Shown here piece after piece: positions 492 through 43,977 of a stretch of DNA of 43,977 nucleotides. Origin of the DNA: Candidatus Rokuibacteriota bacterium (GTDB lineage: Bacteria; Methylomirabilota; Methylomirabilia; Rokubacteriales; CSP1-6); the NCBI GenBank assembly GCA_003221695.1, contig QHSX01000073.1, positions 1-43,977 on the forward strand. The letters are read 5' to 3'. The position numbers were made by a program, and so were the translations under genes. Positions within the stretch are counted from its first letter, which is position 1, and each line of letters opens with the position of its first letter. The notes below the pieces were generated by a model. It did no database searches. It was not told where the DNA came from and was given only the letters and a program-made list of their open reading frames with translations.

Positions 492-3400
492 CTAACCGCG
501 GGGGGAGGACGGTGTCAATGAGATCGTCACGCGCCGCACGGCGTCGAGGAAGAGCGCCGGCTGGAACGGCTTTTCGATCACCGGGACCTGTGCCTCCTTG
601 AGGAAGAAGAACGCCTCGGGGTTCGCCGTGTCGCCGGTGATGAAGACGAAGCGCCCGCGGAGCGTCGCGTCGAGGGCGACCGCGCTCCGGTAGAACTCCT
701 CGCCGCCGCCCTCGGGCATGCGGACGTCGGAGACGACGAGGTCGTAGCGGCGACCGCGGACGCTCTCGAGGCCCGCGCGCCCGCCCGACGCGACCTCGAC
801 GCGCCAGCCGGTCTGGCCGAGCAGCGTCACGATGAGCTCGCGCACGGTCGGCTCGTCCTCGACGACGAGCGCGAGCCGCCCCGCGCCCTGGATCGCCCGG
901 GGCTCGGCGGCCCGCTCCGCGGCCGGCAGCTCGGCCGGCGGGGCGACCGGGAACTCGAGGGTGAAGACCGTCTCGCCCGGCCGGCTCTCGACGCCGAGCC
1001 GCCCGCCGTGCTCCTGCACGATGCCGTACGAGACGGAGAGCCCGAGCCCGGCCCCGCTGCCGACCTCCTTGGTCGTGAAGAACGGCTCGAACACGTGCGG
1101 CAGCGCCTCTGCGGAGATGCCGGGCCCGTCGTCGATGACCCGCGCGTGAACCGCGCGGCCGCCCTCGCTGACACCCGTTCTGAGGACGATGCGGCCGCCG
1201 CGCTTGCCGTCCTGGATCGCCTGCTCGGAGTTGAGCAGGAGGTTGAGGAGCACCTGCTCGAGCTGGTTGGGGTCGCCCATGATCAGGGGGAGCCCCGGGG
1301 CGAGGTCGCGCTCGACGGTGATGCCCGCGAGCGTGAGCTGGTTCAGCCGGAGCAACAGGGTCCGCTCGACCACCTCGTTCAGGTCGAGGGCGGCGCGCTC
1401 GGGCGGGCGCTGGCGCGAGAAGAAGAGGAGGTTCCGGACGATCTTCGCCATCCGGTCGGCCTGCGACACGACCATCTCGATCGGCCGCTTCATGGCGGGC
1501 GGGACCTCGCGCGCGAGCAAGAGCTGGCCGTAGCCGACGATGACACTCAGCGGGTTGTTCAGCTCGTGGGCCACGCCCGAGACGAGCTGGCCGACCGCCG
1601 ACATCTTCGCGGCCTGCACGAGCTGCACCTGCGTGTCTCTGAGGCGCGCGAAGCTGTCGCGGGCGCTCGCGTACAGGCGCGCGTTCTCGAAGGCGAGCGC
1701 GGCCTGGTCGGCGAGGGCCTCGAACGCCTGGAGCTCGTCGGGCGACAGGAGCCGGCCCGTGTCGAGCCAGAGCGAGAGAGCGCCGATGAGGCGCTCGTGG
1801 GTGAGGAGCGGGATCGCCACGGCGCCGCGGAAGCCGTGCGCGGCGATCCGCTCGCGGAGCTCGGGCGACATCTCGACGGACGGATCGGCCAGCATGTCCG
1901 GGGTCACGACGAGCTTCCGTTCGGCGATCGCGCGCCCGGCGACCCCCTCGCCCGCCCGGAGGACGATGTCGACGACGGCGTCTGCGCCGACGCCGGAGGC
2001 GGCGATCACGCGGAGGGTGCTGTCGTCGGGCTCGTAGCGCAAGACCGCCGCGCCGCGCGCGCTCACCAGCTCGACGATGCCGTGCGCGAGCAGGGCGGCG
2101 ATCCGCTCCACCTCGAGGCTCGCCGTCAGCTCGCGCGCGAGCCGCGTCAACACCTCGGCCACGTCGCGCCGCCGCCGGGCCTCCCGGTAGTGCCGCGCGT
2201 TCTGGATGGCCACGGCCGCCTGCGCGAGGAACATGTCGACGATGTCGCGGGTCTCCGCGCCGAAGCTGATGGGCTCCGAGTGGCCCGCCGCCATGACCGC
2301 GAGCAGCTCCTTGCCCGCGAGCACCGGGTACGCCGCGAACGCGCGCAGCCCCCAGCGGGAGAGCCACGTCCTGTTGGCGACCCGGTCGTCGGCGGCGACG
2401 TCGTTCACGACGAGCGGCGCGCGGTGGCGCGCCACCCAGCCGATGCCTCCCACGTCGTAGGCCAGCGTCCGTGGCGCGAAGTCCTCCATGATCTCCGCCA
2501 CGGAGCCACTCGTGAGCGTGAGCGTCCGCTGCTCCTCGTCGGCGAGCCAGAACGACGCGAAGCGGACACCGGTCAGCTCGGCGGCGAGCACGGAGATCTG
2601 GCGCAGGAGGTCGTCGAGCTCGAGGGCGCTCGAGATCCGGCGGTTGACGGCGGCGAGCGCGCGGATGCGGACCGCCTGGCGGCGCTCGGCCTGATAGAGC
2701 GCGGCGTTGCTGACCGCAACGGCCGCCTGCGCGGCGAGGAGGCGGAGCACCTCCTGCACCTCGAGCGGCGGCGGGCCGTGGGGCGAGACGTAGCCGAGCA
2801 CGCCGGCGAACGCCTCGCCGGTCGCGACCGGCACGCCGTAGTACGTGGCGTTCGGCCGTCGGCGCCACCACGCGGGCGCGAGCGTGCGCTGGTCGCTCAC
2901 CGGGTCGATGACGAGCACGGGCCGCCGCGTCTCGACCACGAGGCCCGGCAGCCCCGCGGTCGCCGGGAACTCCTCCGGCAGCCCCTCCCAACCGGCGCCC
3001 GAGTTCGCGGCGTAGCGCAGCACCCGTCCGTCGGGGTCGAGCACGTGCACCGCCGCCAGCGCGCCGGGCGCCAGGGCCGCGGCGGCGTCGGCGATGCGCT
3101 GCATGGCGTCGGTCGTCTCGAGCGCGGTGATCGCCTGGCTCACGTCCACGAGGTTCCGCAGGTGCTCGGCGCGTTGGAGCGCCTCCGCGTAGAGGTGCGC
3201 GTTATCGATGGCGAGCGCCGCCGACTCGGCGAGGAGCTTGAGCGCGGCGATCTCGTCGTCGTCGAAAGTCCGCTCCGTCCAGTAGTGGACGACGAGGGCG
3301 CCGTGGACCCGGCCCTTGGAGGCGAGCGGCGCGGCGGCCGCGGCCTTGTAGCCCTCGCGCTCGACGTGGACCCGGCGCTCGGGTGAGAGCTGCACGTTCG

Positions 3401-4079
3401 GGTCGGAGAGGACGTTGCGCGTCGTCACGGGCCGCGCCTCGAGCACCGCGCGGCTCATCGGGCCGCCCCCCACGGGAATTGTGCCCCGCGTCGCGTACTC
3501 GCGGGAGAGCCGGCCCGCCGCGCGCATCACGCGGAATTCGGGCGCGATGCCGTCCCAGGAGACGACCAGCGCGGCCTCGGCGCCCATCACCTCGAGCGCC
3601 TTCCCGACGATCGTGTCGAGCACCTGGTCGAGGTCGAGCGAGGACGTGAGCGACTGGCCGATCGCTTCGATCGCCTCGCGAAAGAGCAGGCTGCGCCGCC
3701 GGTCGGTGACGTCCACCAGGAACCCGACGACGCCGGCGATGGCCCCGGCCGCGTCCCGCCATGGAACGTAACGCTCCCGCATCCAGCCCTTGCGGCCGAG
3801 GCTCGGTAGCGCGTACGGGAATTCGTCGGTGGAGACGGCGTGGCCCGCGAGCGCGCGCCGGAGGTGAGTCGTGAGGGCGGCCTCGGCGAGGAAGGGCAGG
3901 ACGGCCTGAGCGGTTCGGCCGAGCGCGTCGGCGCGCGCGATGCCCGTGAGACGCTCCATCGCCTTGTTCCACGCGATGACGCCGAGGCGCGCGTCGGTGA
4001 CGAGCAAGGCGTCCTCGACGCCTTCGATAACGCTCAGGCTGAACTCGTCCACGCGTGCTCGGCGCGGGCGCGGCCCCAT
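492..4079 (-). CDS. PAS/multi-GAF hybrid histidine kinase with receiver domain
   Basis: A soluble sensor kinase of 1195 residues. Order: PAS domain (about 10-125), four GAF-like domains (about 130-300, 305-475, 480-640 and 645-815), HisKA with the H-box HELNNP (His838), HATPase with N-box NQLEQVLLNLLLNSEQA and glycine boxes DDGPGIS and GSGAGLGLS, then a receiver domain (about 1067-1190) with phosphoacceptor Asp1118 in VVSDVRMP and Lys in EKPFQP. No transmembrane segment is visible, so it probably senses a cytoplasmic signal. The open frame runs upstream to 4154, but ATG 4079 is preferred because a TATACT hexamer lies 7 nt upstream, which would give a leaderless mRNA. HU follows 8 nt downstream. 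The receiver may pass phosphate to an unlinked partner. The ligand is unknown. Confidence 0.93.
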   Translation of the reverse strand: MGPRPRRARVDEFSLSVIEGVEDALLVTDARLGVIAWNKAMERLTGIARADALGRTAQAVLPFLAEAALTTHLRRALAGHAVSTDEFPYALPSLGRKGWMRERYVPWRDAAGAIAGVVGFLVDVTDRRRSLLFREAIEAIGQSLTSSLDLDQVLDTIVGKALEVMGAEAALVVSWDGIAPEFRVMRAAGRLSREYATRGTIPVGGGPMSRAVLEARPVTTRNVLSDPNVQLSPERRVHVEREGYKAAAAAPLASKGRVHGALVVHYWTERTFDDDEIAALKLLAESAALAIDNAHLYAEALQRAEHLRNLVDVSQAITALETTDAMQRIADAAAALAPGALAAVHVLDPDGRVLRYAANSGAGWEGLPEEFPATAGLPGLVVETRRPVLVIDPVSDQRTLAPAWWRRRPNATYYGVPVATGEAFAGVLGYVSPHGPPPLEVQEVLRLLAAQAAVAVSNAALYQAERRQAVRIRALAAVNRRISSALELDDLLRQISVLAAELTGVRFASFWLADEEQRTLTLTSGSVAEIMEDFAPRTLAYDVGGIGWVARHRAPLVVNDVAADDRVANRTWLSRWGLRAFAAYPVLAGKELLAVMAAGHSEPISFGAETRDIVDMFLAQAAVAIQNARHYREARRRRDVAEVLTRLARELTASLEVERIAALLAHGIVELVSARGAAVLRYEPDDSTLRVIAASGVGADAVVDIVLRAGEGVAGRAIAERKLVVTPDMLADPSVEMSPELRERIAAHGFRGAVAIPLLTHERLIGALSLWLDTGRLLSPDELQAFEALADQAALAFENARLYASARDSFARLRDTQVQLVQAAKMSAVGQLVSGVAHELNNPLSVIVGYGQLLLAREVPPAMKRPIEMVVSQADRMAKIVRNLLFFSRQRPPERAALDLNEVVERTLLLRLNQLTLAGITVERDLAPGLPLIMGDPNQLEQVLLNLLLNSEQAIQDGKRGGRIVLRTGVSEGGRAVHARVIDDGPGISAEALPHVFEPFFTTKEVGSGAGLGLSVSYGIVQEHGGRLGVESRPGETVFTLEFPVAPPAELPAAERAAEPRAIQGAGRLALVVEDEPTVRELIVTLLGQTGWRVEVASGGRAGLESVRGRRYDLVVSDVRMPEGGGEEFYRSAVALDATLRGRFVFITGDTANPEAFFFLKEAQVPVIEKPFQPALFLDAVRRVTISLTPSSPRG

Positions 4080-7464: not shown

Positions 7465-7635
7465 ATGTTCGGCGACGTGAGCCACAACGTCCTGCTCGTC
7501 GTGCTCGCCATCACCTTGATCGTTGTCATCGGCGGCTTCGGCTTCATGTTCTGGGCTGCGAGGGACATCTCTCGCATGACGCGAGCCGTCGCCGGGTTGG
7601 TCGTCCAAGAGACCGCGAAGCTTCACCGTCCCTGA
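7465..7635 (+). CDS. small single-span membrane protein
   Basis: A 56-residue frame opening at ATG 7465 with GAGGA about ten bases upstream and a perfect TTGACA at 7430-7435 further up. Residues 8-32 (NVLLVVLAITLIVVIGGFGF) form one clear transmembrane helix, followed by a short basic cytoplasmic-type tail. It lies alone between ubiE and the formate dehydrogenase genes on the same strand. No family is recognised. Coding status rests on the helix, the start signals and its position. Confidence 0.55.
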   Translation: MFGDVSHNVLLVVLAITLIVVIGGFGFMFWAARDISRMTRAVAGLVVQETAKLHRP

Positions 7636-7695: not shown

Positions 7696-9735
7696 ATGAC
7701 GGTCGCCGAGCTGCTGGCGAAGTTTCCCCGCGAGCGGACGTGGCTCCTGCCCGCGCTCCAGGCGGTCCAGCGCGCCCAGCGTTACCTCTCCCCCGACGCC
7801 CTCGAGACGGTCGCCGCACACCTGCGCGTCCCGAAGAGCGAGGTATGGGGCGTCGCGTCGCACTACCCGGAGCTGCGCCTGGCGCCTCTCGGACGCCGTC
7901 TCGTGCGGGTGTGCGCGGGCGTGAGCTGTCGCGTGCGGGGCGGCCGCGAGCTCCTCGCCGCGTGCGAGCGGCGGCTCGGCGTCCGCGCGGGCCAGACCAC
8001 CGCCGACGGCGCGGTGACGCTCGAGGAGCTGGACTGCGGGTTCACTTGCGCCGTCGCCCCCGTCGTCGAGATCGACCACGCGTACCGGGGCCGCGTGACC
8101 CCGGACGCCCTCGACGCCTTGCTGACCGCGCCTACACCGTCGCACGCCACCGTTTCCACGCCGCCACGTGTCGCACTCCCGCCGGCGCCGACGGCCGGCT
8201 CGCCCGCGGCGCGCTTCGCCGGGCTCAGGCGCGAGGCCGAGCGGCGGCGCACGGGCGCGCGCCTCGCCGTCGGGATGGGAACGTGCGGGCTCGCCGTCGG
8301 CGCGCGCGAGACGTTCGAGGCGCTGCGCGTCGAGGTCCAGCGCCGCGGCCTCCCGTTCACCGTCGTCGCCTCGGGCTGTAACGGCATGTGCTGGGCCCAG
8401 CCGGTCGTCGAGGTCCTGCGCGACGGCCGCCCACGGCTCACGACCGGTCCGGTCGCCGCCGCGGCGGTCCCGCGTCTCCTGAATGCCCTGGCGGCGAATC
8501 CCGCCGCGGCGCCCGACGTCGGCGCCGAGTGGCTCCCGCGTCAGCGGCGCGTGCTCCTCGAGCGCTGTGGCCTCGCCAACCCCGGCGACATCGCCGACGC
8601 GATCCGTCACGGGACCTACGCGACGCTGGTGCACGCGCTCGAGGGCGGGCCCGAGGTGGTCATCGAGGAGGTGCGCGCGGCCGGCCTCGCCGGGCGCGGC
8701 GGCGCCTACTTCCCGACGGCGGTGAAGTGGGCGGCGTGCCGTGCGGCCAAGGGCGCGCCGAAGTACCTCGTCGTCAACGGCGAGGAGGGCGAGCCCGGCA
8801 TCTTCAAGGACCGCCACCTGATGGAGGGCGACCCGCACCGGCTCCTCGAGGCCGTGCTACTCGCCGCGTACGCCGCCGGCGCCTCGCGCGCCATCCTGTA
8901 CGTTCACGGCGAGGCCGAGCTCTCGGCCGAGCGGCTCCGCGTGGCCGTGGCGCAGGCGCGCGAGTGGGGACTCCTCGGCGAGCGCATCCTCGGCTCCGAC
9001 CTCTCGCTCGACGTCGAGCTTCGCCGCGGCGCCGGCGGCTTCGTCCTCGGCGAGGAGACCGCGCTCCTCGAATCCATCGAGGGCCATCGCGCGATGCCCC
9101 GCACGCGCCCGCCCTTCCCCGTCGAGTCCGGGCTCTGGGGCAAGCCGACCGTCATCAACAACGTCGAGACGCTCTGCGCCGTGCCGTCCATCGTCGCCCA
9201 GGGCGGCGCCTGGTTCGCGAGCCTCGGCCGCGGCGGCGGGACGAAGCTCTTCGGGCTCTCCGGCCACGTCAGGCGCCCGGGGCTGGTCGAGGTGGAGCTC
9301 GGCGCGACGCTCAGGATGCTCGTGGAGGAGCTCGGCGGCGGCTCCTCGACGGGCCGGCCGATCCACGCCACGGTCCTGGGCGGGCCGTCGGGCAGCGTCG
9401 TCCCCGCGCGGCAGTTCGACGAGCCACTCGTGCCGCGCGGTCCGGTGAACCCTGGGACGGGCGGGGTCGTCGCCCTCGACGACGGCGCGTCGGTCGCCGA
9501 CGCGGTGCGCACGCTGCTCGCCTTCAACATGCGCGAGTCGTGCGGCAAGTGCACGCCGTGCCGGGAGGGGACCGCGCGGCTCTTCCAGGCGCTCGACGGG
9601 CCCGTCGAGCGCGAGCGCGTGAGCTCGCTCGCCGAGGTGATCCAGGTCGCCTCGCTGTGTGGGCTCGGCCAGGCCGCCCCGCTCGCCGTACTCTCGGCCC
9701 TCGCCGAGTTCCCGGGCGAGTTCGGGCTATCATGA
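7696..9735 (+). CDS. NAD-dependent formate dehydrogenase, fused gamma-beta (NuoE-NuoF-like) subunit
   Basis: A 679-residue diaphorase subunit that passes electrons from formate to NAD+. Residues 1-145 are a NuoE/FdsG-like thioredoxin-fold domain with the [2Fe-2S] cysteines Cys73, Cys78, Cys114 and Cys118. Residues 190-265 are a second thioredoxin-like domain with Cys197, Cys229 and Cys232. Residues 285 onward are NuoF/FdsB: FMN/NADH-binding GRGGAYFPTAVKW and NGEEGEPGIFKDRHLM, GGFVLGEETALLESIEG, SLBB, and the [4Fe-4S] motif ESCGKCTPCREGT (Cys616, 619, 622, plus Cys655). ATG 7696 opens directly at the first domain. The catalytic subunit starts 8 nt downstream. Most Fds-type enzymes have the gamma and beta subunits as separate genes. 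No FdsC or FdsD homologue is visible here. Confidence 0.9.
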   Translation: MTVAELLAKFPRERTWLLPALQAVQRAQRYLSPDALETVAAHLRVPKSEVWGVASHYPELRLAPLGRRLVRVCAGVSCRVRGGRELLAACERRLGVRAGQTTADGAVTLEELDCGFTCAVAPVVEIDHAYRGRVTPDALDALLTAPTPSHATVSTPPRVALPPAPTAGSPAARFAGLRREAERRRTGARLAVGMGTCGLAVGARETFEALRVEVQRRGLPFTVVASGCNGMCWAQPVVEVLRDGRPRLTTGPVAAAAVPRLLNALAANPAAAPDVGAEWLPRQRRVLLERCGLANPGDIADAIRHGTYATLVHALEGGPEVVIEEVRAAGLAGRGGAYFPTAVKWAACRAAKGAPKYLVVNGEEGEPGIFKDRHLMEGDPHRLLEAVLLAAYAAGASRAILYVHGEAELSAERLRVAVAQAREWGLLGERILGSDLSLDVELRRGAGGFVLGEETALLESIEGHRAMPRTRPPFPVESGLWGKPTVINNVETLCAVPSIVAQGGAWFASLGRGGGTKLFGLSGHVRRPGLVEVELGATLRMLVEELGGGSSTGRPIHATVLGGPSGSVVPARQFDEPLVPRGPVNPGTGGVVALDDGASVADAVRTLLAFNMRESCGKCTPCREGTARLFQALDGPVERERVSSLAEVIQVASLCGLGQAAPLAVLSALAEFPGEFGLS

Positions 9736-9742
9736 GACTCCG

Positions 9743-12466
9743 GTGAGGCTCACGATCGACGGACGCGAGGTCGAGCTTCCCGAGGGCGCGACGGTCCTCG
9801 AGGGGGTGAACCGCCTCGCGATCCCCCTGCCCCAGCTCTGCAAGGACCCGGATCGCGCGCCGCTCGGCGCCTGCCGGACGTGCCTCGTCCACGTCGAGGG
9901 CCAACGCGGGCTCCCCGCCGCGTGTCACCTGCCGGCGCGCGAGGGCATGGTCGTCTCGACCGAGCATCCCGACGCCGTGCGCGTGCGCCTTGGCGTCCTC
10001 GACCTCACGCTCTCGATGCTCACAGCGAAGACGGAGGCGTCGAGCGGGGGAGGGCTCCGCCCGCATGAGGACACGGGTCACGACTTCGCCCAGGTCGGCG
10101 AGGCGGCCGCGCGTCACGGGCTCGGCGAGCCGAGCTTCCCGCCCCTCCACCGCTTCGACCCGGACGCGTCGAAGTCGTTCTTCGTGCTCGACCGGGAGGC
10201 GTGCATCCTCTGCGGACGCTGCACGGTCGCGTGCGACGAGGTTCAGCAGATCGGCGCGATCGCGCTCCTCGGGCGCGGTCACGCGACGAAGGTCGGCGTC
10301 TTCGGCGACGGCCTGCTGGCCGGCTCGGTCTGCACCTCGTGCGGCCAGTGCGTGGCGACGTGCCCGACGGGGGCGCTCTCGCCGAAGGACGCGCCGGCGA
10401 GGATCGCCCGCCGCGTGGAGACGACCTGCCCCTACTGCGGCGTCGGCTGCGGCCTCGTCGTCCCCGTCCGTGAGGACGGCCGGCTCGCGTTGATGGCAGA
10501 CGACCTGCCGTCGAACGCGTCCAGCCTCGGCACCCTCTGCGTGAAGGGACGGTTCGGGACGGGCTTCGTCCACGCACGCGACCGGATCACCCACCCGATG
10601 ATCCGGCGTGAGGGCCGCTGGATCCGCGTGGGCTGGGAGGAGGCGCTGGACGCCGCCGCCGAAGGGCTGGCGAGGCATCGCGGCAGGTTCGGCGCCCTCG
10701 CGAGCGCCAAGGCCACCAACGAGGATGGCTACGTGATCCAGAAGTTCTGTCGCGTCGTCATGCAGACGAACGACGTGGATCACTGCACGCGGCTCTGCCA
10801 CTCGCCGTCGGTCGAGGCGATGCTCGCCTCGATGGGCTCGGGCGCCACGTCGAACTCCTATCAGGACTACGAGGAATCGGGCTGCCTCCTGGTGGTCGGC
10901 GCCGACGCCTCAGCGAACCACCCGGTGATCGCGATCCGCTTCCGCCGCGCCGTCGCCCGCGGCGCGCGGCTCGTCGTCGTCAATCCCAAACGCATCGAGC
11001 TGTGCGACCAGGCGGACCTCTGGCTCCAGCAGCGCCCAGGCACCGACGTCGCGCTCTTCAACGCGATGGCGCGCGTGATCCTGGACGACGGCCTCGCGAA
11101 CCTCGACTTCGTCCGGACCCGGACGGAGGGGTTCGAGGCGTGGCGAGCCTCGCTCGAGCCCTTCACGCTCGCGCACGCCGAGGGGGTGACGGGCGTGCGC
11201 GCGAGTGACATCGCGCGGGCCGCGCGCTGGTACGCGCGGCCTCCGTTCGCGGGCTCGTGCCTGATCTGGGGCATGGGCATCACGCAGCACACGAACGGCA
11301 TCCACAACGCCCACGCGGTCCTGAACCTGTCGCTCGTCGCAGGCCAGATGGGTTTTCCCGGTAGCGGCATCTCCCCCCTGCGGGGCCAGAACAACGTCCA
11401 GGGGTGCGGCGACGCCGGGTGCATCCCGACGAACCTCCCCGGGTACCAGCAGTACGATCCCGCGACGCTCGCGAAGTTCGAGACGCGCTGGGGAGTGAGG
11501 CCGCCGGCGCGTCCGGGACGCGTCGTGACCGAGATGATCGAGGGGTGCCTCGACGGCGCCACGCGCGCCCTGTACGTCGTTGGCGAGAACCCGCTGCTCT
11601 CGGAGCCGGACCTCCACCACGCCGAGAAGGCGATCGGCCAGCTTGAGTTCCTCGTCGTGCAGGACCTCTTCATGCACGAGACGGCCGAGCGCGCCCACGT
11701 CTTCCTGCCGGCCGCCGCGTTCGCCGAGAAGGAGGGCACGTTCACCAACTCGGAGCGGCGCGTCCAGCGCGTGCGCGAGGCCCTGCCTCCGCCGGGCGAG
11801 GCGCGCCCGGACTGGTGGATCACGTGCGAGCTCGCCAAGCGCGTCGCCCGGCGGCTGGGGATGGACGTCGGCGGCCAGTTCGACTACCCCGGGCCGGCCG
11901 CGATCTTCGACGAGATGGCCCGGCTCACCCCGCTCCTCGCCGGCCTCTCGCACGCGCGGCTCGATCGCGAGGGCGGCATCCAGTGGCCGTGCCCGACGCC
12001 CGATCACCCCGGCACGCGTTATCTCTACGCGGAGTCCTTCCCGACGGGGCGCGCCCGGTTCATCCCGGCGCAGCAGACCGCGGAGGCGGCGGAGCTCCCC
12101 GACCGCGACTTCCCGTTCCTCCTCAACACCGGACGGCTCCTCTACCACTGGCACGGAGGGACGCTCACCCGACGGGTCGGGGGCCTGCTGGAGCTCGCCC
12201 CGCGCCTCGAGGTCGCCATCCATCCGAGCGACGCGCGACGGCTCGGCGTCGACACCGGCTCGCGGATCCGCGTGGCCTCGCGGCGCGGCGAGCTGACGGG
12301 CCACGCGCGGGTCACCGAGGCGGTGCGTCCGGGCGCCGTCTTCGTCCCGTTCGTGAAGCTCGAGGAGTCGGCCGCGAACTTCCTGACGAACTCCGCGTTC
12401 GACCCGTCGTCGAAGATCCCCGAATACAAAGTCTGCGCCGTCCGCGTCGAGCGCGTGCCCGAGTAG
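9743..12466 (+). CDS. fdhA: formate dehydrogenase alpha (catalytic) subunit, Mo/W type with cysteine
   Basis: A 907-residue molybdopterin oxidoreductase of the FdsA/FdhF type, oxidising formate to CO2. The N-terminal [2Fe-2S] domain has Cys33, 44, 47 and 61. Two [4Fe-4S] ferredoxin clusters use Cys154/157/160/164 and Cys197/200/203/207. The CPYCGVGC cluster uses Cys229/232/236/266. The metal ligand is Cys352 in RLCHSPSV followed by His353, and Arg547 in RGQNNVQG matches the conserved active-site arginine. There is no in-frame TGA, so this is a cysteine enzyme. Start is GTG 9743, where the 2Fe-2S domain begins. It follows the fused diaphorase by 8 nt. The set should form a cytoplasmic NAD-linked complex. 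Confidence 0.93.
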   Translation: MRLTIDGREVELPEGATVLEGVNRLAIPLPQLCKDPDRAPLGACRTCLVHVEGQRGLPAACHLPAREGMVVSTEHPDAVRVRLGVLDLTLSMLTAKTEASSGGGLRPHEDTGHDFAQVGEAAARHGLGEPSFPPLHRFDPDASKSFFVLDREACILCGRCTVACDEVQQIGAIALLGRGHATKVGVFGDGLLAGSVCTSCGQCVATCPTGALSPKDAPARIARRVETTCPYCGVGCGLVVPVREDGRLALMADDLPSNASSLGTLCVKGRFGTGFVHARDRITHPMIRREGRWIRVGWEEALDAAAEGLARHRGRFGALASAKATNEDGYVIQKFCRVVMQTNDVDHCTRLCHSPSVEAMLASMGSGATSNSYQDYEESGCLLVVGADASANHPVIAIRFRRAVARGARLVVVNPKRIELCDQADLWLQQRPGTDVALFNAMARVILDDGLANLDFVRTRTEGFEAWRASLEPFTLAHAEGVTGVRASDIARAARWYARPPFAGSCLIWGMGITQHTNGIHNAHAVLNLSLVAGQMGFPGSGISPLRGQNNVQGCGDAGCIPTNLPGYQQYDPATLAKFETRWGVRPPARPGRVVTEMIEGCLDGATRALYVVGENPLLSEPDLHHAEKAIGQLEFLVVQDLFMHETAERAHVFLPAAAFAEKEGTFTNSERRVQRVREALPPPGEARPDWWITCELAKRVARRLGMDVGGQFDYPGPAAIFDEMARLTPLLAGLSHARLDREGGIQWPCPTPDHPGTRYLYAESFPTGRARFIPAQQTAEAAELPDRDFPFLLNTGRLLYHWHGGTLTRRVGGLLELAPRLEVAIHPSDARRLGVDTGSRIRVASRRGELTGHARVTEAVRPGAVFVPFVKLEESAANFLTNSAFDPSSKIPEYKVCAVRVERVPE

Positions 12467-34549: not shown

Positions 34550-34921
34550 CTACCGGCCGCAGGAGAGGCGCATGCGATTCCGCGCGACCCACCTGTAGAA
34601 CCGCCGCGCGAGCGGGCGGGCGCCCGGGAGCGCGAAGAGCGCCGCGAGCCAGCCGAGCCCCCGGATACGCCGGAGCAGCTCGGGCACCGCGTCGGCGCCG
34701 CCCAGCACGCGACCGTCGGGCAGGACGAGCTGCATCGCCGTCGTGCACGCCGCGTCGGAGACCTGCGGGAAGCGCGCGCGCCGCGGCTCGGAGCGGCACG
34801 GCAGGATCTCGAGCGCCCCGCCGGAGAGCGCCAAGCGCATGAGCCAGAGCGCGCTCGCCCGGCACATCGCGCACTCGCCGTCGTAGATCAGGACGGCCGT
34901 GGCTACGGGCGGCGCCCCCAT
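34550..34921 (-). CDS. DCC-family (DUF393) thiol-disulfide oxidoreductase-like protein
   Basis: A 123-residue protein of the DCC family. The defining motif is YDGECAMCRAS (Asp14, Cys17, Cys20 region), followed by WLMRLA and the conserved GADAVPELLRRIRG. Family members have a thioredoxin-like fold and are thought to be redox proteins, but their role is not established. ATG 34921 lies within the end of the small membrane protein gene (19-nt overlap), so they are co-translated. This is the last gene of a run that starts with the Sec-containing redoxin, which fits a thiol-redox theme. Confidence 0.87.
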   Translation of the reverse strand: MGAPPVATAVLIYDGECAMCRASALWLMRLALSGGALEILPCRSEPRRARFPQVSDAACTTAMQLVLPDGRVLGGADAVPELLRRIRGLGWLAALFALPGARPLARRFYRWVARNRMRLSCGR

Positions 34922-35114: not shown

Positions 35115-36497
35115 CTAGGTGCCCAGCACGGCCTTCACGGCATCCCGCGCGACCGCGCTGAGCCGGTCGACCTCCGCCTCGGTCACGACCAGAGGCGGCG
35201 CGAAATAGATCGTGTCGCCCGGGGCCGGGTGCGGCCCGACCACCGCCCGCGTGCGCGTGACGACCCCGCGCTTCATCATCTCCGCCTGGAGGCGCGCCGC
35301 CACCTTGCGGTCGCCGGCGAAGTTCTTCTGGGTCGCGCGGTCCTCGACCAGCTCGACGGCCGCCAGGAGGCCCTTGCCGCCGCGGATGTCGCCCGCGTGC
35401 GGATGGTCGTGGAACGCGACTTTGAGCCCGGTGAAGAGTCGGTCGCCCATCTTCGCCGCGTTCTCCCAGAGGCGCTCGCGCGTCATGATCTCGATGTTCT
35501 TCACGGCGACGGCGCAGCACGTGGGATGCCCGGAGTAGGTGTACGCGTGCATCCAGCGGTCCTCGGGCTTGACCGAGTCCATCGCGCCCTTGATCGCCTT
35601 CGTGATCATGATCCCGCCGAGCGGGAGATAGCCCGACGTGACGCCCTTGGCGAACGAGAGGATGTCGGGCTTCACGTTCCAGTGCATGAGCGCGAACCAC
35701 CGGCCGGTCCGGCAGAACCCGGTGATGACCTCGTCGGCGATGAGCAGCACGTTGTGCCGCGTGCAGACCTCGCGCACGCGCGGCCAGTAGTCGTCGGTCG
35801 GGTAGAGCACGCCGCCGCCGCCGTGGATCGGCTCGCCGATGAACGCGGCGACCGTGTCGGGCCCCTCGCGGAGGATCGCCTCCTCCAGCGCGCGCGCCGC
35901 CGCCTGGCCCACCGTCTCGCCGGCCTTGGCGCCCTGGAACCGGTAGGGGTAGCACGTCGGGATGTGGACGAACCCCGGCACGCGCGGCTCGAACATCTTC
36001 CAGTAGGCGCTCATCCCGGTGGCGCTCATCGCCTGGAGCGTGACGCCGTGGTAGGCCTGGTGGCGGGAGATGATCTTCACCTTGTCCGGCTTGCCGACCG
36101 CCTTCCAGTAGAAGCGCGCCGTCTTGAACGCCGACTCGTTCGCCTCGGCGCCACCGGATGCGAGGAAGACCGCCTGCATGTTGTCGTAGGTGATCTCCAT
36201 GAGGCGGTTCGCCAGCGTGATCGCGGGGATGTTGGACGAGCCCACGTAACCCGTGAAGTAGGCGAGCTCCTTCATCTGAGTGGACGCGGCGTCGGCGAGC
36301 TCGGCGCGCCCGTGCCCCACGTTGACGTTCCAGAGGCCCGCCAGCCCGTCGATGTACTCGTGGCCGCCGATGTCCCAGACCGTCGCACCGCGCCCCCGGA
36401 CGTAGATGACCGGCTCCGCGTTCTCGGAGGGATGGTGGAGCGGATGGATCAGGTGCTCCTGGTCGGCCTTCACAAGCTCGGCAGCGGTCAGCGCCAT
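35115..36497 (-). CDS. class III (omega-type) aminotransferase
   Basis: A 460-residue PLP-dependent transaminase of the class III family. Recognisable are LWNVNVGHGRAELADA, FLASGGAEANESAFKTAR (phosphate-binding), AYHGVTLQAMSATG, LLIADEVITGFCRTG (PLP Asp) and the PLP lysine in LSFAKGVTSGYLPLGG. The sequence resembles omega-amino acid:pyruvate and related transaminases. The donor is unknown. ATG 36497 has GGGGAGGA 5 nt upstream. It follows the cyclotransferase-like gene by 16 nt in the same run. Confidence 0.92.
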   Translation of the reverse strand: MALTAAELVKADQEHLIHPLHHPSENAEPVIYVRGRGATVWDIGGHEYIDGLAGLWNVNVGHGRAELADAASTQMKELAYFTGYVGSSNIPAITLANRLMEITYDNMQAVFLASGGAEANESAFKTARFYWKAVGKPDKVKIISRHQAYHGVTLQAMSATGMSAYWKMFEPRVPGFVHIPTCYPYRFQGAKAGETVGQAAARALEEAILREGPDTVAAFIGEPIHGGGGVLYPTDDYWPRVREVCTRHNVLLIADEVITGFCRTGRWFALMHWNVKPDILSFAKGVTSGYLPLGGIMITKAIKGAMDSVKPEDRWMHAYTYSGHPTCCAVAVKNIEIMTRERLWENAAKMGDRLFTGLKVAFHDHPHAGDIRGGKGLLAAVELVEDRATQKNFAGDRKVAARLQAEMMKRGVVTRTRAVVGPHPAPGDTIYFAPPLVVTEAEVDRLSAVARDAVKAVLGT

Positions 36498-36513
36498 TGC
36501 GTCCTCCCCAGCG

Positions 36514-36897
36514 TCACGAGTGGTCCCGGGCCGGACGAGCCCGGCGGTAGTCGCCGCCCGGAATCGCCACGGCACGGTGCTGCGGTCCGCGATACCAGTA
36601 CACCCACGCCCGCGCGCGCCGCCCGCTCGCGAGCGTCACGGTCGACGGGCGACGGTCGAAATTGTAACCCTCCTCGCGGTCAAGGGCCGGGAGAACTTCG
36701 GGCGCGGCGATCCGATACAGCTCACCGCGCACCGTGCCACGCCCGTCGACCAGCCCGGGATACGCCCCGAGGTCGAGCAGCCGGCCACGCACACGCCCCT
36801 CACCGACGAACGTGGCTCCGGTCGTGAGCACGCGATGCAGCCTGTAGCCGCGCATCAGCGTCCCGTACGCAAACAGGAACGCTGGGGCGACGGTCAG
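36514..36897 (-). CDS. gamma-glutamylcyclotransferase-like protein, CTG start
   Basis: A 127-residue protein of the AIG2/GGCT-like fold, which cleaves or forms cyclised gamma-glutamyl groups. The substrate-loop motif FAYGTLMRG and the catalytic Glu region LDREEGY are present. The first ATG, at 36855, lies after the YGTL motif, and no ATG, GTG or TTG lies in frame before it. The only place that restores the domain is CTG 36897, which overlaps the stop of the redoxin gene as CTGA. I therefore propose a CTG start with coupled translation. With the Sec-redoxin in front it may belong to glutathione or other gamma-glutamyl thiol metabolism. The exact substrate is not known. Confidence 0.78.
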   Translation of the reverse strand: MTVAPAFLFAYGTLMRGYRLHRVLTTGATFVGEGRVRGRLLDLGAYPGLVDGRGTVRGELYRIAAPEVLPALDREEGYNFDRRPSTVTLASGRRARAWVYWYRGPQHRAVAIPGGDYRRARPARDHS

Positions 36898-37544
36898 GAC
36901 GTGCTCACCGCCTGCAGCACGGCGCCGAGGAAGTCCTTTTCGGGGACGGCCCCCTCGAACTGCACGCGATCGTTGATGACGATCTTCGGCACACCCATGA
37001 CCTGGTAGGCGCGCGAAAGCTCGGGGAACTCGGTCGCTTCGATCGTGGTCGACCGGACCCGCTCGGAGGCGACCGCCATGTGCTGCGCCAGGCGCACGGC
37101 CCGGGGGCAGTAGGGTCAGGTCGGCGTCGAGAAGACCTTGATGTCCACGTCCGCGGCGAGCGTCCGGAGCGTCGCCAGCGTCTCCTCGGCGAGCGCCGGC
37201 TGGCCGGTGGAGGCCACCACGATCGAATCGATCAGGTTGCCGAACTCGTAACCCGACGGGATCCCGTAGAACCGTATCCCGTAGTCGCGCGCCCCTTCCA
37301 CGACGATCGCCGGCACCTGATCCACGCCGTACGCCCCGGCACGCTCGCGATCGATCGCCGGGTTGAGGACCTCCACGGTGAGCTTGTCGGAGAGCTCGGC
37401 GACCTCGCGGACGAGCGCTTCGTTCTGGCGGCAGAGGTCGCCGGCCAGGAGCTCCTGCGAGAATACGACAAGCTTCACGGGACCGGTGAGCTTCTCGAAC
37501 TCCGTGCGGACGGCGGCGCGGTCGCGCTCGGTCATGATGGACAT
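36894..37544 (-). CDS. selenocysteine-containing two-domain protein-disulfide oxidoreductase (glutaredoxin-like, UPYC)
   Basis: Two frames separated only by an in-frame TGA (37118-37116) form one 216-residue protein with two thioredoxin folds. The N-domain (1-125) has FSQELLAGDLCRQ with one Cys (38) and the cis-Pro in GVDQVPAIVV. The C-domain has KVFSTPT, then TGA, then PYCPRAVRLAQHM, and the second cis-Pro in MGVPKIVIND. The TGA stands exactly where the first Cys of the CPYC active site belongs, giving U143-P-Y-C146. Both sides keep codon use and homology, and a SECIS-like hairpin follows at once. ATG 37544 is 6 nt after a TATAAT. The gene-finder result would be two short proteins. Probably reduces disulfides or peroxides with selenol chemistry. 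The partner is unknown. It heads the run with GGCT, aminotransferase and DCC genes. Confidence 0.85.
37083..37110 (-). promoter_or_regulatory. SECIS-like hairpin after the Sec UGA
   Basis: In the mRNA, nucleotides +6 to +33 after UGA fold as CUGC/GCAG (4 bp), a small internal loop, then CCGGGC/GCCUGG (6 bp with one G-U), closed by the loop CGUGC. The loop begins 18 nt after UGA and has G and U in positions 2-3. Bacterial SECIS elements place a short stem with a G/U-containing loop about 16-37 nt after UGA, so position and loop fit. In GC-rich DNA such stems also arise by chance. Confidence 0.55.
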
Positions 37545-37677: not shown

Positions 37678-39549
37678 ATGAAGCCGTTCGTGATCAACCG
37701 CTACGGGCGGATCGTCTTCCCGTTCAATTTCTTCCCGGCGCTCGACTTCTCCGTGTTCGAGACGCTCGATCAGTTTGCCGCGGTGATCAAGCGCGACTTC
37801 GAGGAGAAGGCCCCGACCGAGGTCGACATCGTCGCCAGGGTCGACGCGCGCGCCTACAACGGCCGCTACGACCTGCTCCGCGACCTGGCGCTGAACCTCT
37901 TCTGGGTGAACCGCTACGCGATGACGATGTACGAGAAGCGACCGATGCGCTGGCGCGACGTCCCCCGCCAGCGCGACGACGTGTTCCTGCCGATCTTCAA
38001 GCCCTGGGACGGGGGAGAGCTGACGAGCGCGATCGAGTCCGGCTACCGCGCGCTCCCGCCGACGTGGGACGAGGGGACGGAGGACAAGATCTCGCGCATC
38101 CTCCTCGACGTCTTCCGCCACAAGAAGGGCGCGGGCGCCGAGCTTCCGGCGATCAAGCCCACGGTGTCGGAGATCCTCGCGAACCCGCGGAACCTCACCT
38201 ACCACCTGCTCGCATACGATCCCGACTACCCGGGCTACGGCCACGACGACATCATCGAATTCGCGCACCGCGTCCCCGAGCTCGAGGCGCTGATGCGCCA
38301 TGCGATGGTGCTCCACAACCAGTACCGCTGGGACCGCGCGAAGACGCGAGTGATCGAGGTCGGGAAGCTCCACCACGACGACTTCGTCGTGGTCTTCGCC
38401 CCGCGGAGCGACGAGGTCGCGCAGTTCATCCGCCGCGTCAAGGCCGGCCGGCGCGTCCCGCCCCGCCGCCCCGCGCCCCTCCCGACGAAGGCGCCGGTCG
38501 CACCGTACCCGGCGATCGACGTGCGGCGACGGTTCGCCGTCATGCCGCGCGTCGAGGCGCTCGCCGTGTACAAGGGCGAGGTCGTCTGCACCAACGACGA
38601 TCTGATCCGCAACACGGCCTACTGCTGGTCGCCGATGACGGCCAAGGAGATCGAGGAGAAGACCGGCATCGTCGAGCGGCTCTACACCGAGCTCGACCTG
38701 GACCACATCGCCCTCATCGCCGCCCAGCGCGCGCTCGCGAAGGCCGGGCGGCGGCCGGAAGAGATCGGCGCGGTGCTCTTCTGCTCGTGCACCTCCGCCA
38801 AGATGATGCCCTCGCTCGCCACGTGGCTGTCGGGGCAGCTCGGGATGCTCCAGACGCACGCGTCGTGCGACATGGTCGCGGCGTGCGCCGGCCTGCCCTA
38901 CGGCCTCTCCGAGGCGGTGCGACTGCTCCAGGAGGTCGAGCGCCCCGTGCTCGTCGTGTGCGGCGAGCGGTTCTCGGACAAGATCGGCACCGTGCGGACG
39001 TCGCGGATGATCTTCGGCGACGGCGCGGCCGCGCTCGTGATCGGGTCGGCGCCGGCCGGCGCGCCAGACATCGAGTGGTTCCAGACCTACGCGAGCGGGC
39101 CGATCAGCGAGGTGGACTCGATCATCTGGCCGAACCCGGCGTTCGACAACAACATCACCGTCTACGGGCCCGAGGTCAAGGCCCTGGTGAAGCGCTACCT
39201 CTCGCAGATGATCGCGGAGCTCCAGAAGCTCCCCCACCCCGACGGCAGCGGAGGCACGCTCCTGGACGCGATCGACCTGATCGTCCCCCACCAGGCGAAC
39301 AAGACGATGGTGCTGCACTACGCCCGGGCGGCGGGCGTCCCCGCGGAGCGGCTCTACTTCAACATCGAGCGGGTGGGCAACACCTCCTCGGCCTCCATCC
39401 CGATCGCGATCCACGACGCCGTGCGGGAGGGCGTGATCGACCGGCCCGTGCGCGTCTTCGCGCCGGGGTTCGGCGCGGGCGCCGTCGGGGGCTACGTCGT
39501 CATGCGCGTCGATCCGGCGATCGTCGACGTGCAGGGCGCGTCGGAGTAA
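37678..39549 (+). CDS. ketoacyl-synthase III (FabH-like) enzyme with unrecognised N-terminal domain
   Basis: A 623-residue protein in two parts. Residues from about 285 to the end are a FabH-like thiolase-fold enzyme with the full triad: Cys403 in VAACAG, His538 in VPHQAN and Asn568 in VGNTSS, and FGDGAAALVIG. Such enzymes condense or transfer acyl-CoA groups. Residues 1-280 match no domain I know. They are rich in aromatic residues (FPFNFFPALDFSVFETL, DPDYPGYGHDDIIEF), contain HHDDF, and lead through a proline-rich linker (PPRRPAPLPTKAPVAPYP) into the synthase. ATG 37678 has AGGGAG upstream. It is divergent from the selenoprotein. Product unknown. The C-terminal call is firm, the role is not. 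Confidence 0.85.
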   Translation: MKPFVINRYGRIVFPFNFFPALDFSVFETLDQFAAVIKRDFEEKAPTEVDIVARVDARAYNGRYDLLRDLALNLFWVNRYAMTMYEKRPMRWRDVPRQRDDVFLPIFKPWDGGELTSAIESGYRALPPTWDEGTEDKISRILLDVFRHKKGAGAELPAIKPTVSEILANPRNLTYHLLAYDPDYPGYGHDDIIEFAHRVPELEALMRHAMVLHNQYRWDRAKTRVIEVGKLHHDDFVVVFAPRSDEVAQFIRRVKAGRRVPPRRPAPLPTKAPVAPYPAIDVRRRFAVMPRVEALAVYKGEVVCTNDDLIRNTAYCWSPMTAKEIEEKTGIVERLYTELDLDHIALIAAQRALAKAGRRPEEIGAVLFCSCTSAKMMPSLATWLSGQLGMLQTHASCDMVAACAGLPYGLSEAVRLLQEVERPVLVVCGERFSDKIGTVRTSRMIFGDGAAALVIGSAPAGAPDIEWFQTYASGPISEVDSIIWPNPAFDNNITVYGPEVKALVKRYLSQMIAELQKLPHPDGSGGTLLDAIDLIVPHQANKTMVLHYARAAGVPAERLYFNIERVGNTSSASIPIAIHDAVREGVIDRPVRVFAPGFGAGAVGGYVVMRVDPAIVDVQGASE

Positions 39550-42386: not shown

Positions 42387-43977
42387 CTACTGGATCGTGA
42401 TGCGCCCGGCAGTCAGCGTCGCCGCTGGCAACGATGTATTGCCGAGGATGAGCCGGAGGCCCTGCGTCGTCGCCGTTACGCTGCACGGTACCCCGGTGAG
42501 AGGAGCCGTGCCGTCGCCCATGTCGACGGTGCTGAGACCTGCGAAGATCGCGCTGCCATCTGGGTTGACGGAGCCGCTACTGGCTTGACCCACAATGTTT
42601 ATCTTTTGCGGCTGACCAAGGAGTGAGGTACCCAGCAGCAGAGCCTGAAAGTCTCCGGTCGCAGAGCCGTCCCCCGGAATGTCGACTCCCTTTCCGAATT
42701 GCAGGCCATTGAGAAGGATGCCGTTTAACGCGGCGCCGCTCGGGAAGATCCCTTCACCGGCACCCGTCGCCACTGTTTCCCTCTGGGCGGGAGCGGGTGA
42801 CTCATTGTGAACCTGGATATTCCCGCTGCGGATGACGCCGCCCGCCGTGTATGCAGGGGAGTTCACCGTGATGTAGAACATGTCTTTACCGGCCCCGGGC
42901 TCGCCCTTGTCTTGTACGGAGACGTAGAACGTACACGAACTACCGCACGGGCCTGAGAACTCAGCCGAGTTGCCTGTGATCGTCAGCGAGGTAACGGGAC
43001 CCTGCACATGTCGTTTGGTCGCATGGTCCAAGTAGTTGAGGTTGCCGCTCGCAGGCCCACCCGTGGTCTTACGCTGGGCCACGAAGCCGAAGTTGGCCGT
43101 TCCGCCATTCACATTGATTACGCCACCACCGGTCACCTTCCCGGGCGTCGTCTGCGGGCTTACCACCGTGGTGGCGGTGTCAGTGTTGTTGGCCTGGTTC
43201 GTTTCGGCCTCACTGCCCCTTACGTTGGCGGTGTTAGTCATCGTCCCGGTAGCCGCCACAGAGATGTGCACCGTGATGTCGAAGCTCACGCTCAAGTTGG
43301 TGGCGAGCGGGCCAAAGCTGCAGCTGACCGTGCTCGGGGCAGTGAAGGCGCAGCCCGCGCTCGCCGACTTGAAGCTCACCTGCGCCGGCAGGATGTCGGT
43401 CACCGTCCCGCCAGTCGATGGCGTGAGACCGTTGTTCGTGACGGTCAGGTGGTAGTTGATGTCGGTACCCGACGTAGCCAGGCCCGGCGCGCTCTTGGTG
43501 ATCGCTAGGTCAGGCGGAGGCAAAGCATCGTCGTTCACGATCGTGCCCGTGCCGGTGTCCTTCGTGATGGTCGCGCCGGTGGCGCCGCTCAGCTTGACCG
43601 TGAAGGCCTCGCTCAGCTCGAAGGTCGTGTCCGCGCAGACCTGGACCGTGATGGTCTTGCTCGGGTCACTCGGCGCGAAGGTCAGCGTGCCGGTCTGGCT
43701 GATGTAGTCGGGCGTGCCCGTGGCGGCGGCGGCGCAACTGCTGTTGCCGGTGGCGGTCCCGTCGACCGTCGTAAAGCCGACCGTGACCGACTGGGTGGTG
43801 GCCCCGGTCTTGGTCACCGTGAAGGTGAAGGCGGTCGTGCCGCCCGTGCTGCCCTCGGCCTGGCTCACGTCATCGATCGCCAGCGTGGGAGCCGTATCGT
43901 CGTTCACGATCGTGCCGATGCCGGTGTCCTTCGTGATGGTCGCATTGGTGGCGCCGCTCAGCTTGACCGTGAAGGCC
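42387..43977 (-). CDS. Calx-beta/DUF11 repeat surface protein, C-terminal part
   Basis: The gene continues past the right edge with no stop or credible start, so only the last 530 residues are seen. They contain Calx-beta repeats (TVTVGFTTVDGTATG-like, TLTFAPSDPSKTITVQV, ELSEAFTVKLSGATGATI, then GTIVNDD), a DUF11-type domain (LAITKSAPGLATSGTDINYHLTVTNNG with TDILPAQVSF), and a 280-residue C-terminal beta-rich region starting GKVTGGGVINVNGG. The repeat unit is 123 residues (369 nt) and adjacent copies are nearly identical in DNA. Few charged residues and many Thr, Ser and Gly point to an exported adhesin or surface-layer protein. No sorting motif (PEP-CTERM, LPXTG) is present at the end. Confidence 0.85.
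   Translation of the reverse strand, partial: AFTVKLSGATNATITKDTGIGTIVNDDTAPTLAIDDVSQAEGSTGGTTAFTFTVTKTGATTQSVTVGFTTVDGTATGNSSCAAAATGTPDYISQTGTLTFAPSDPSKTITVQVCADTTFELSEAFTVKLSGATGATITKDTGTGTIVNDDALPPPDLAITKSAPGLATSGTDINYHLTVTNNGLTPSTGGTVTDILPAQVSFKSASAGCAFTAPSTVSCSFGPLATNLSVSFDITVHISVAATGTMTNTANVRGSEAETNQANNTDTATTVVSPQTTPGKVTGGGVINVNGGTANFGFVAQRKTTGGPASGNLNYLDHATKRHVQGPVTSLTITGNSAEFSGPCGSSCTFYVSVQDKGEPGAGKDMFYITVNSPAYTAGGVIRSGNIQVHNESPAPAQRETVATGAGEGIFPSGAALNGILLNGLQFGKGVDIPGDGSATGDFQALLLGTSLLGQPQKINIVGQASSGSVNPDGSAIFAGLSTVDMGDGTAPLTGVPCSVTATTQGLRLILGNTSLPAATLTAGRITIQ

Follow-up and report, generated by a model that had tools for sequence, protein, structure and literature searches.

A predicted selenocysteine-containing protein of the TIGR02187 family, with one degenerate active site, in Candidatus Rokuibacteriota

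The gene described here very probably encodes a working member of the TIGR02187 family of selenoproteins, in which UGA143 is read as selenocysteine (Sec) and which likely acts as a one-site reductase or electron relay. It lies in a stretch of 43,977 nucleotides (the window) on contig C84 of a Candidatus Rokuibacteriota genome of 4.6 Mb in 109 contigs, rated 100% complete. The features of the gene are as follows:

36894..37544, minus strand: Sec-containing protein disulfide oxidoreductase-like gene, TIGR02187, 216 aa, U143-P-Y-C146 (translation with TGA read as Sec)
37431..37445, minus strand: N-terminal active site, degenerate, with A34-G-D-L-C38 instead of CxxC (alignments)
37116..37118, minus strand: in-frame TGA, predicted selenocysteine codon, residue 143 (TGA in 41/41 distinct Rokubacteria-type orthologues)
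37088..37104, minus strand: predicted bacterial SECIS apical hairpin CCGGGC-CGUGC-GCCUGG, 6 bp and a 5-nt loop, 12-28 nt 3' of the UGA (fold and synonymous conservation)

An earlier note on this DNA had placed an in-frame TGA at 37118-37116, exactly on the first Cys of a CPYC motif, and both the frame and the coordinates are correct. The context of residue 143 is KVFSTPT-U-PYCPRAV, with U as the first residue of UPYC, and the true stop of the 216-codon gene is a second TGA at 36896-36894. As was also stated there, standard ORF calling separates the two halves, the gene being split by a 193-aa ORF that ends at 37116. The flanks had been said to fit the family without a gap, which holds for the homologues of solved structure from P. 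furiosus (TPTCPYC), P. horikoshii and A. aeolicus (TSCGYC): all align at the site gap-free and have Cys in the column of residue 143. Cys is likewise found there in a more distant homologue, L078 (TPTCPYC, codon TGT, 48% identity), so that Cys and Sec are indeed paired at this residue. A scan of the 44-kb window for TGA codons with coding-like sequence on both sides gave two sites, 37118-37116 and 7633-7635; the latter resembles a normal intergenic stop codon.

Across Methylomirabilota the TIGR02187 protein is almost invariably in its Sec form. A search of 60 genomes, this one and its relatives, gave 33 full-length or near full-length genes, every one with exactly one in-frame TGA. Nearly all the named relatives are Candidatus Rokuibacteriota, and many carry titles that point to groundwater or to depth-labelled (30-40 cm) samples. 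In the phylum as a whole the gene scores above the TIGR02187 cut-off in 51 of 95 genomes, 50 of which have one TGA. The 41 distinct Rokubacteria-type sequences with TGA at the Sec codon are 63-100% identical, and further Sec forms are L114 (45%) and L080 (40%, labelled Chloroflexi). The sole TGA-less orthologue over the cut-off in the phylum is L112 (G084:C122, match 4633-3995, minus strand), where AGA (Arg) replaces TGA while the hairpin is unchanged; the genome G084 is 78% complete, and the AGA could stem from a recent loss or from faulty sequence. Apart from this lone exception with its intact hairpin, the relatives show neither TAA or TAG at the site nor a series of decaying copies. Median dN/dS (Nei-Gojobori-type estimates, 40 orthologues) is 0.28 before the TGA and 0.19 after it, which indicates that translation, and with it selective constraint, continues beyond the TGA.

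These results bear on the reading of the TGA as a fault of assembly or a genuine premature stop, with the gene truncated or a pseudogene. Such a reading would agree with the splitting of the gene by standard calling and with the sense codon at the site in one relative, but the same TGA recurs in dozens of independently assembled genomes, at amino-acid identities down to 45%, dN/dS is as low after the TGA as before it, and the genome holds a full set of sel genes. Because the TGA is kept in dozens of genomes and selection acts downstream of it, we rejected this reading, whose probability is practically negligible; the note's view that a sequencing error is unlikely is thus well founded.

Three further loci deserve mention in their own right. 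L113 (G070:C278, around 3043-3471) is a relative of the Sec gene that lacks its middle part, active site and all, with the remaining parts joined in frame, and looks like a deletion or an assembly collapse. L075 (MGTY01000078.1), titled Elusimicrobia GWA2_69_24, has a typical Rokubacteria-type Sec protein with the same aminotransferase and DCC1-like neighbours, so the name of this MAG is probably wrong. L115 (G009:C6, 2167-1850, minus strand) is a separate larger frame of 461 aa, half of it like the N-terminal PDO domain (33% identity) and with no in-frame stop; it is possibly a diverged paralogue.

All the machinery for Sec that the earlier note had named is present in the genome. The tRNA-Sec scores 69.8 bits against a cut-off of 47 and is called tRNA-SeC with anticodon tca by ARAGORN; near it on contig C52 are selA (589 bits) and selB (373 bits), and selD (337 bits) is on C35. 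The selD gene (L018, G000:C35:113035-113976) has an in-frame TGA of its own, in TCAG-U-ASKMAP, with the strong hairpin CUCCUGGAGAUCUCCAGGAG after it, and is itself predicted to encode a selenoprotein, which brings the predicted selenoproteins of this organism to at least two. In the same window the formate dehydrogenase alpha subunit (9659-12466, plus strand; TIGR01591, 708 bits) lacks an in-frame TGA and has the Cys version of the site (RLCHSPS) despite the Sec machinery. Of the 60 genomes, 57 have a recognised selA and 51 a tRNA-Sec. Neither was found in the assemblies of three relatives that have the TGA gene, G024, G033 and G034. The contig with the sel cluster is probably missing from their bins; G024 and G034 are MAGs 77-81% complete, while for G033, at 100%, such a loss must be assumed.

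The hairpin downstream of the UGA covers codons 147-152 (CCC CGG GCC GTG CGC CTG), and each of the residues has at least four synonymous codons. These codons are nearly frozen: the mean excess same-codon probability is 0.493, reached in none of 200,000 permutations, as against 0.099 gene-wide, and they form the best synonymously frozen stretch in the gene. The position and layout of the hairpin are within the usual range of bacterial SECIS elements, and its second loop position is G. In the stem 88% of cells are paired, compared with at most 55% when it is slid, and two variants (CCAGGCGGTCCGCCTGG, CCGGGCGGTCCGCCTGG) retain the stem pairs. The folding energy is not unusual relative to shuffles (z -0.34), and covariation across 10 distinct sequences gave few compensatory changes, with 90 of 500 shuffles as good. 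Since the hairpin hardly varies, neither measure adds support, and the case for a SECIS element rests on synonymous conservation.

A very improbable explanation is that the UGA is read as another amino acid (Cys or Trp), or by non-specific read-through, without Sec. It would be in accordance with the Cys found at the site in homologues, but the gene's own stop is also TGA, for which reason we rejected a genome-wide reassignment of UGA; moreover, the genome has a tRNA-Sec, and hairpin codons after the UGA that hardly change at synonymous sites are consistent with a SECIS element. We therefore prefer decoding as Sec, in which UGA143 would be read by tRNA-Sec and SelB with the aid of the downstream hairpin. 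The earlier proposal that the organism decodes UGA as Sec finds support, at the level of sequence, in the sel gene set, the conservation of the TGA, the selection after it and the hairpin codons.

The protein scores 260.3 bits to NCBIfam TIGR02187 (cut-off 185), with residues 6-212 matching profile positions 2-209 of 209. An AlphaFold model of the read-through protein (21 aligned sequences, Cys standing for Sec) has a mean pLDDT of 95.7 and two thioredoxin folds. Its best PDB matches are the A. aeolicus and P. furiosus protein disulfide oxidoreductases (PDO; 2ayt, 2ywm, 1a8l) with TM 0.93-0.94 and rmsd 1.3-1.5, 2ayt being the top match at 0.94, and the next-best structural family is that of the AhpF N-terminal domains. 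The TIGR02187 protein is homologous to archaeal and Aquifex PDO and to the AhpF N-terminal domain. With the P. furiosus (1a8l) and A. aeolicus (2ayt, 2ywm) PDO it shares both thioredoxin folds, 36-39% identity in structural alignment and a C-terminal CxxC-type site; it differs from them in having Sec for the first C-terminal Cys, in not keeping the N-terminal CxxC and in coming from soil and groundwater clades. The AhpF N-terminal domains (E. coli 4o5q, Salmonella 1zyn, E. faecalis 6il7) have the same two-fold thioredoxin unit (TM 0.83-0.89), whereas the Rokubacteria protein stands alone, with no flavin reductase domain and with Sec for Cys. Sec-glutaredoxin (UxxC, PF00462) shares the UPYC motif and a glutaredoxin-like C-terminal domain (36 bits to PF00462), but the protein studied here has two domains and a far higher score to TIGR02187, and its homology points to PDO, which is fed by thioredoxin reductase (PMC7278568).

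Of the features of a classical two-site PDO, the tandem thioredoxin folds are present and CxxC in both domains is not. Among 43 Sec forms the N-terminal site has a single Cys in 37 and none in six (five and L080); elsewhere the distant L114 has CPTC at this site, and the Cys form L078 has CQYC. The earlier note had called the protein a general two-domain disulfide reductase. The two thioredoxin folds and the PDO-type family uphold the two-domain part, while the loss of the N-terminal CxxC makes it probably a one-site protein and weakens the word general. Judging by the Cys homologues, Sec143 of the C-terminal domain would attack and Cys146 would resolve. By analogy with Sulfolobus and Pyrococcus PDO, the most likely role would be the reduction of disulfides or of peroxidase-type partners, with electrons from NADPH passing through the thioredoxin reductase of the genome (G000:C72:85653-86555), which is above cut-off at 408 bits.

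It is unlikely that the Sec protein is mainly a disulfide isomerase or oxidase, like two-site PDO or PDI, and not a reductase or relay. Fold and family are those of PDO, which would suit such a role. Against it, Sec as a rule promotes reductive chemistry. None of the Rokubacteria-type Sec forms examined keeps the N-terminal CxxC, and in S. solfataricus PDO the C-terminal site is fundamental for thiol-transferase activity while isomerase activity needs both sites (PMC7465337). With the N-terminal CxxC degenerate, one-site reductase or relay activity would be expected from the published S. solfataricus PDO mutants, rather than isomerase activity. The electron path in that organism runs from NADPH to thioredoxin reductase and on to PDO (PMC7465337, PMC7278568). 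A special case of the reductase or relay that we favour is an AhpF-type electron relay to peroxiredoxin in place of a general reductase. AhpF N-terminal domains are the structural family next to PDO, the selenoprotein literature names the family after AhpF, and S. solfataricus PDO feeds peroxiredoxins (PMC7278568); at the locus itself there is no peroxiredoxin or AhpC among the conserved neighbours, and we regard this special case as possible, though rather doubtful.

The Sec gene opens a run of genes on one strand, and upstream of it, at 37678, is a divergent gene with a ketoacyl-ACP-synthase-III-like domain. The genes that follow it are:

36514..36855, minus strand: GGACT / AIG2-like gamma-glutamyl cyclotransferase family gene (PF06094, 68 bits, match from profile position 8)
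35115..36575, minus strand: class III aminotransferase (PF00202, 308 bits)
34550..34921, minus strand: DCC1-like thiol-disulfide oxidoreductase (PF04134, 75 bits)

The coding sequence of the GGACT-family gene seems to begin upstream of the ATG at 36855 (FAYGTLM), adjoining the stop of the Sec gene. In 29 loci compared (L053-L081) the GGACT gene adjoins in 24, the aminotransferase is kept in 26 and the DCC1-like gene in 20, and some of the losses are contig or flank ends. The earlier note also had the gene heading an operon with thiol-related genes. This is a reasonable reading: the order of the downstream genes is conserved, and one of them, that of the DCC1-like protein, clearly encodes a thiol-disulfide oxidoreductase, while the functional link between these genes is a matter of inference. 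Farther off in the window, at 42387-43907 (minus strand), a protein with Calx-beta, DUF11 and post-COAP-1 domains has a surface-type architecture.

TIGR02187 is an established selenoprotein family, and neither its Sec form nor the use of Sec in the phylum is new. The Sec form is a table entry in PMC13188914, and selenoproteins of the family were counted in 2006 in Carboxydothermus hydrogenoformans and Symbiobacterium (PMC1794560) and in 2024 in Asgard archaea (PMC11227280); PMC13188914 also cites a Methylomirabilota MAG with 63 predicted selenoprotein genes. The proteins of C. hydrogenoformans (ABB15282.1), Symbiobacterium and Asgard Borrarchaeales share with ours a TIGR02187 score over the cut-off and Sec as the first residue of UxxC, and the form described here differs from them in its Rokubacteria lineage and its own local gene cluster; it may also differ in the decay of its N-terminal CxxC. 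Our literature search, which was incomplete, found no report on the phylum-wide near-fixation of Sec or on the decay of the N-terminal site, and none joining Rokubacteria with a statement on the TIGR02187 protein.

We suggest tentatively, with somewhat less than an even chance of being right, that a PDO ancestor with two sites gave rise in Rokubacteria to a one-site reductase relying on Sec only, its N-terminal CxxC decayed and its C-terminal Sec fixed, and that the conserved gene cluster suggests a dedicated relay and not a general reductase. With Sec in one domain and the active site gone from the other, this protein is a testable case of Sec accompanying a change from two sites to one. A review calls PDOs exclusive to thermophiles (PMC7465337); the PDO homologue described here belongs to clades of soil and groundwater. 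As standard ORF calling cuts the gene in two, a redox enzyme conserved in a widespread, uncultured phylum may be missed or be called broken.
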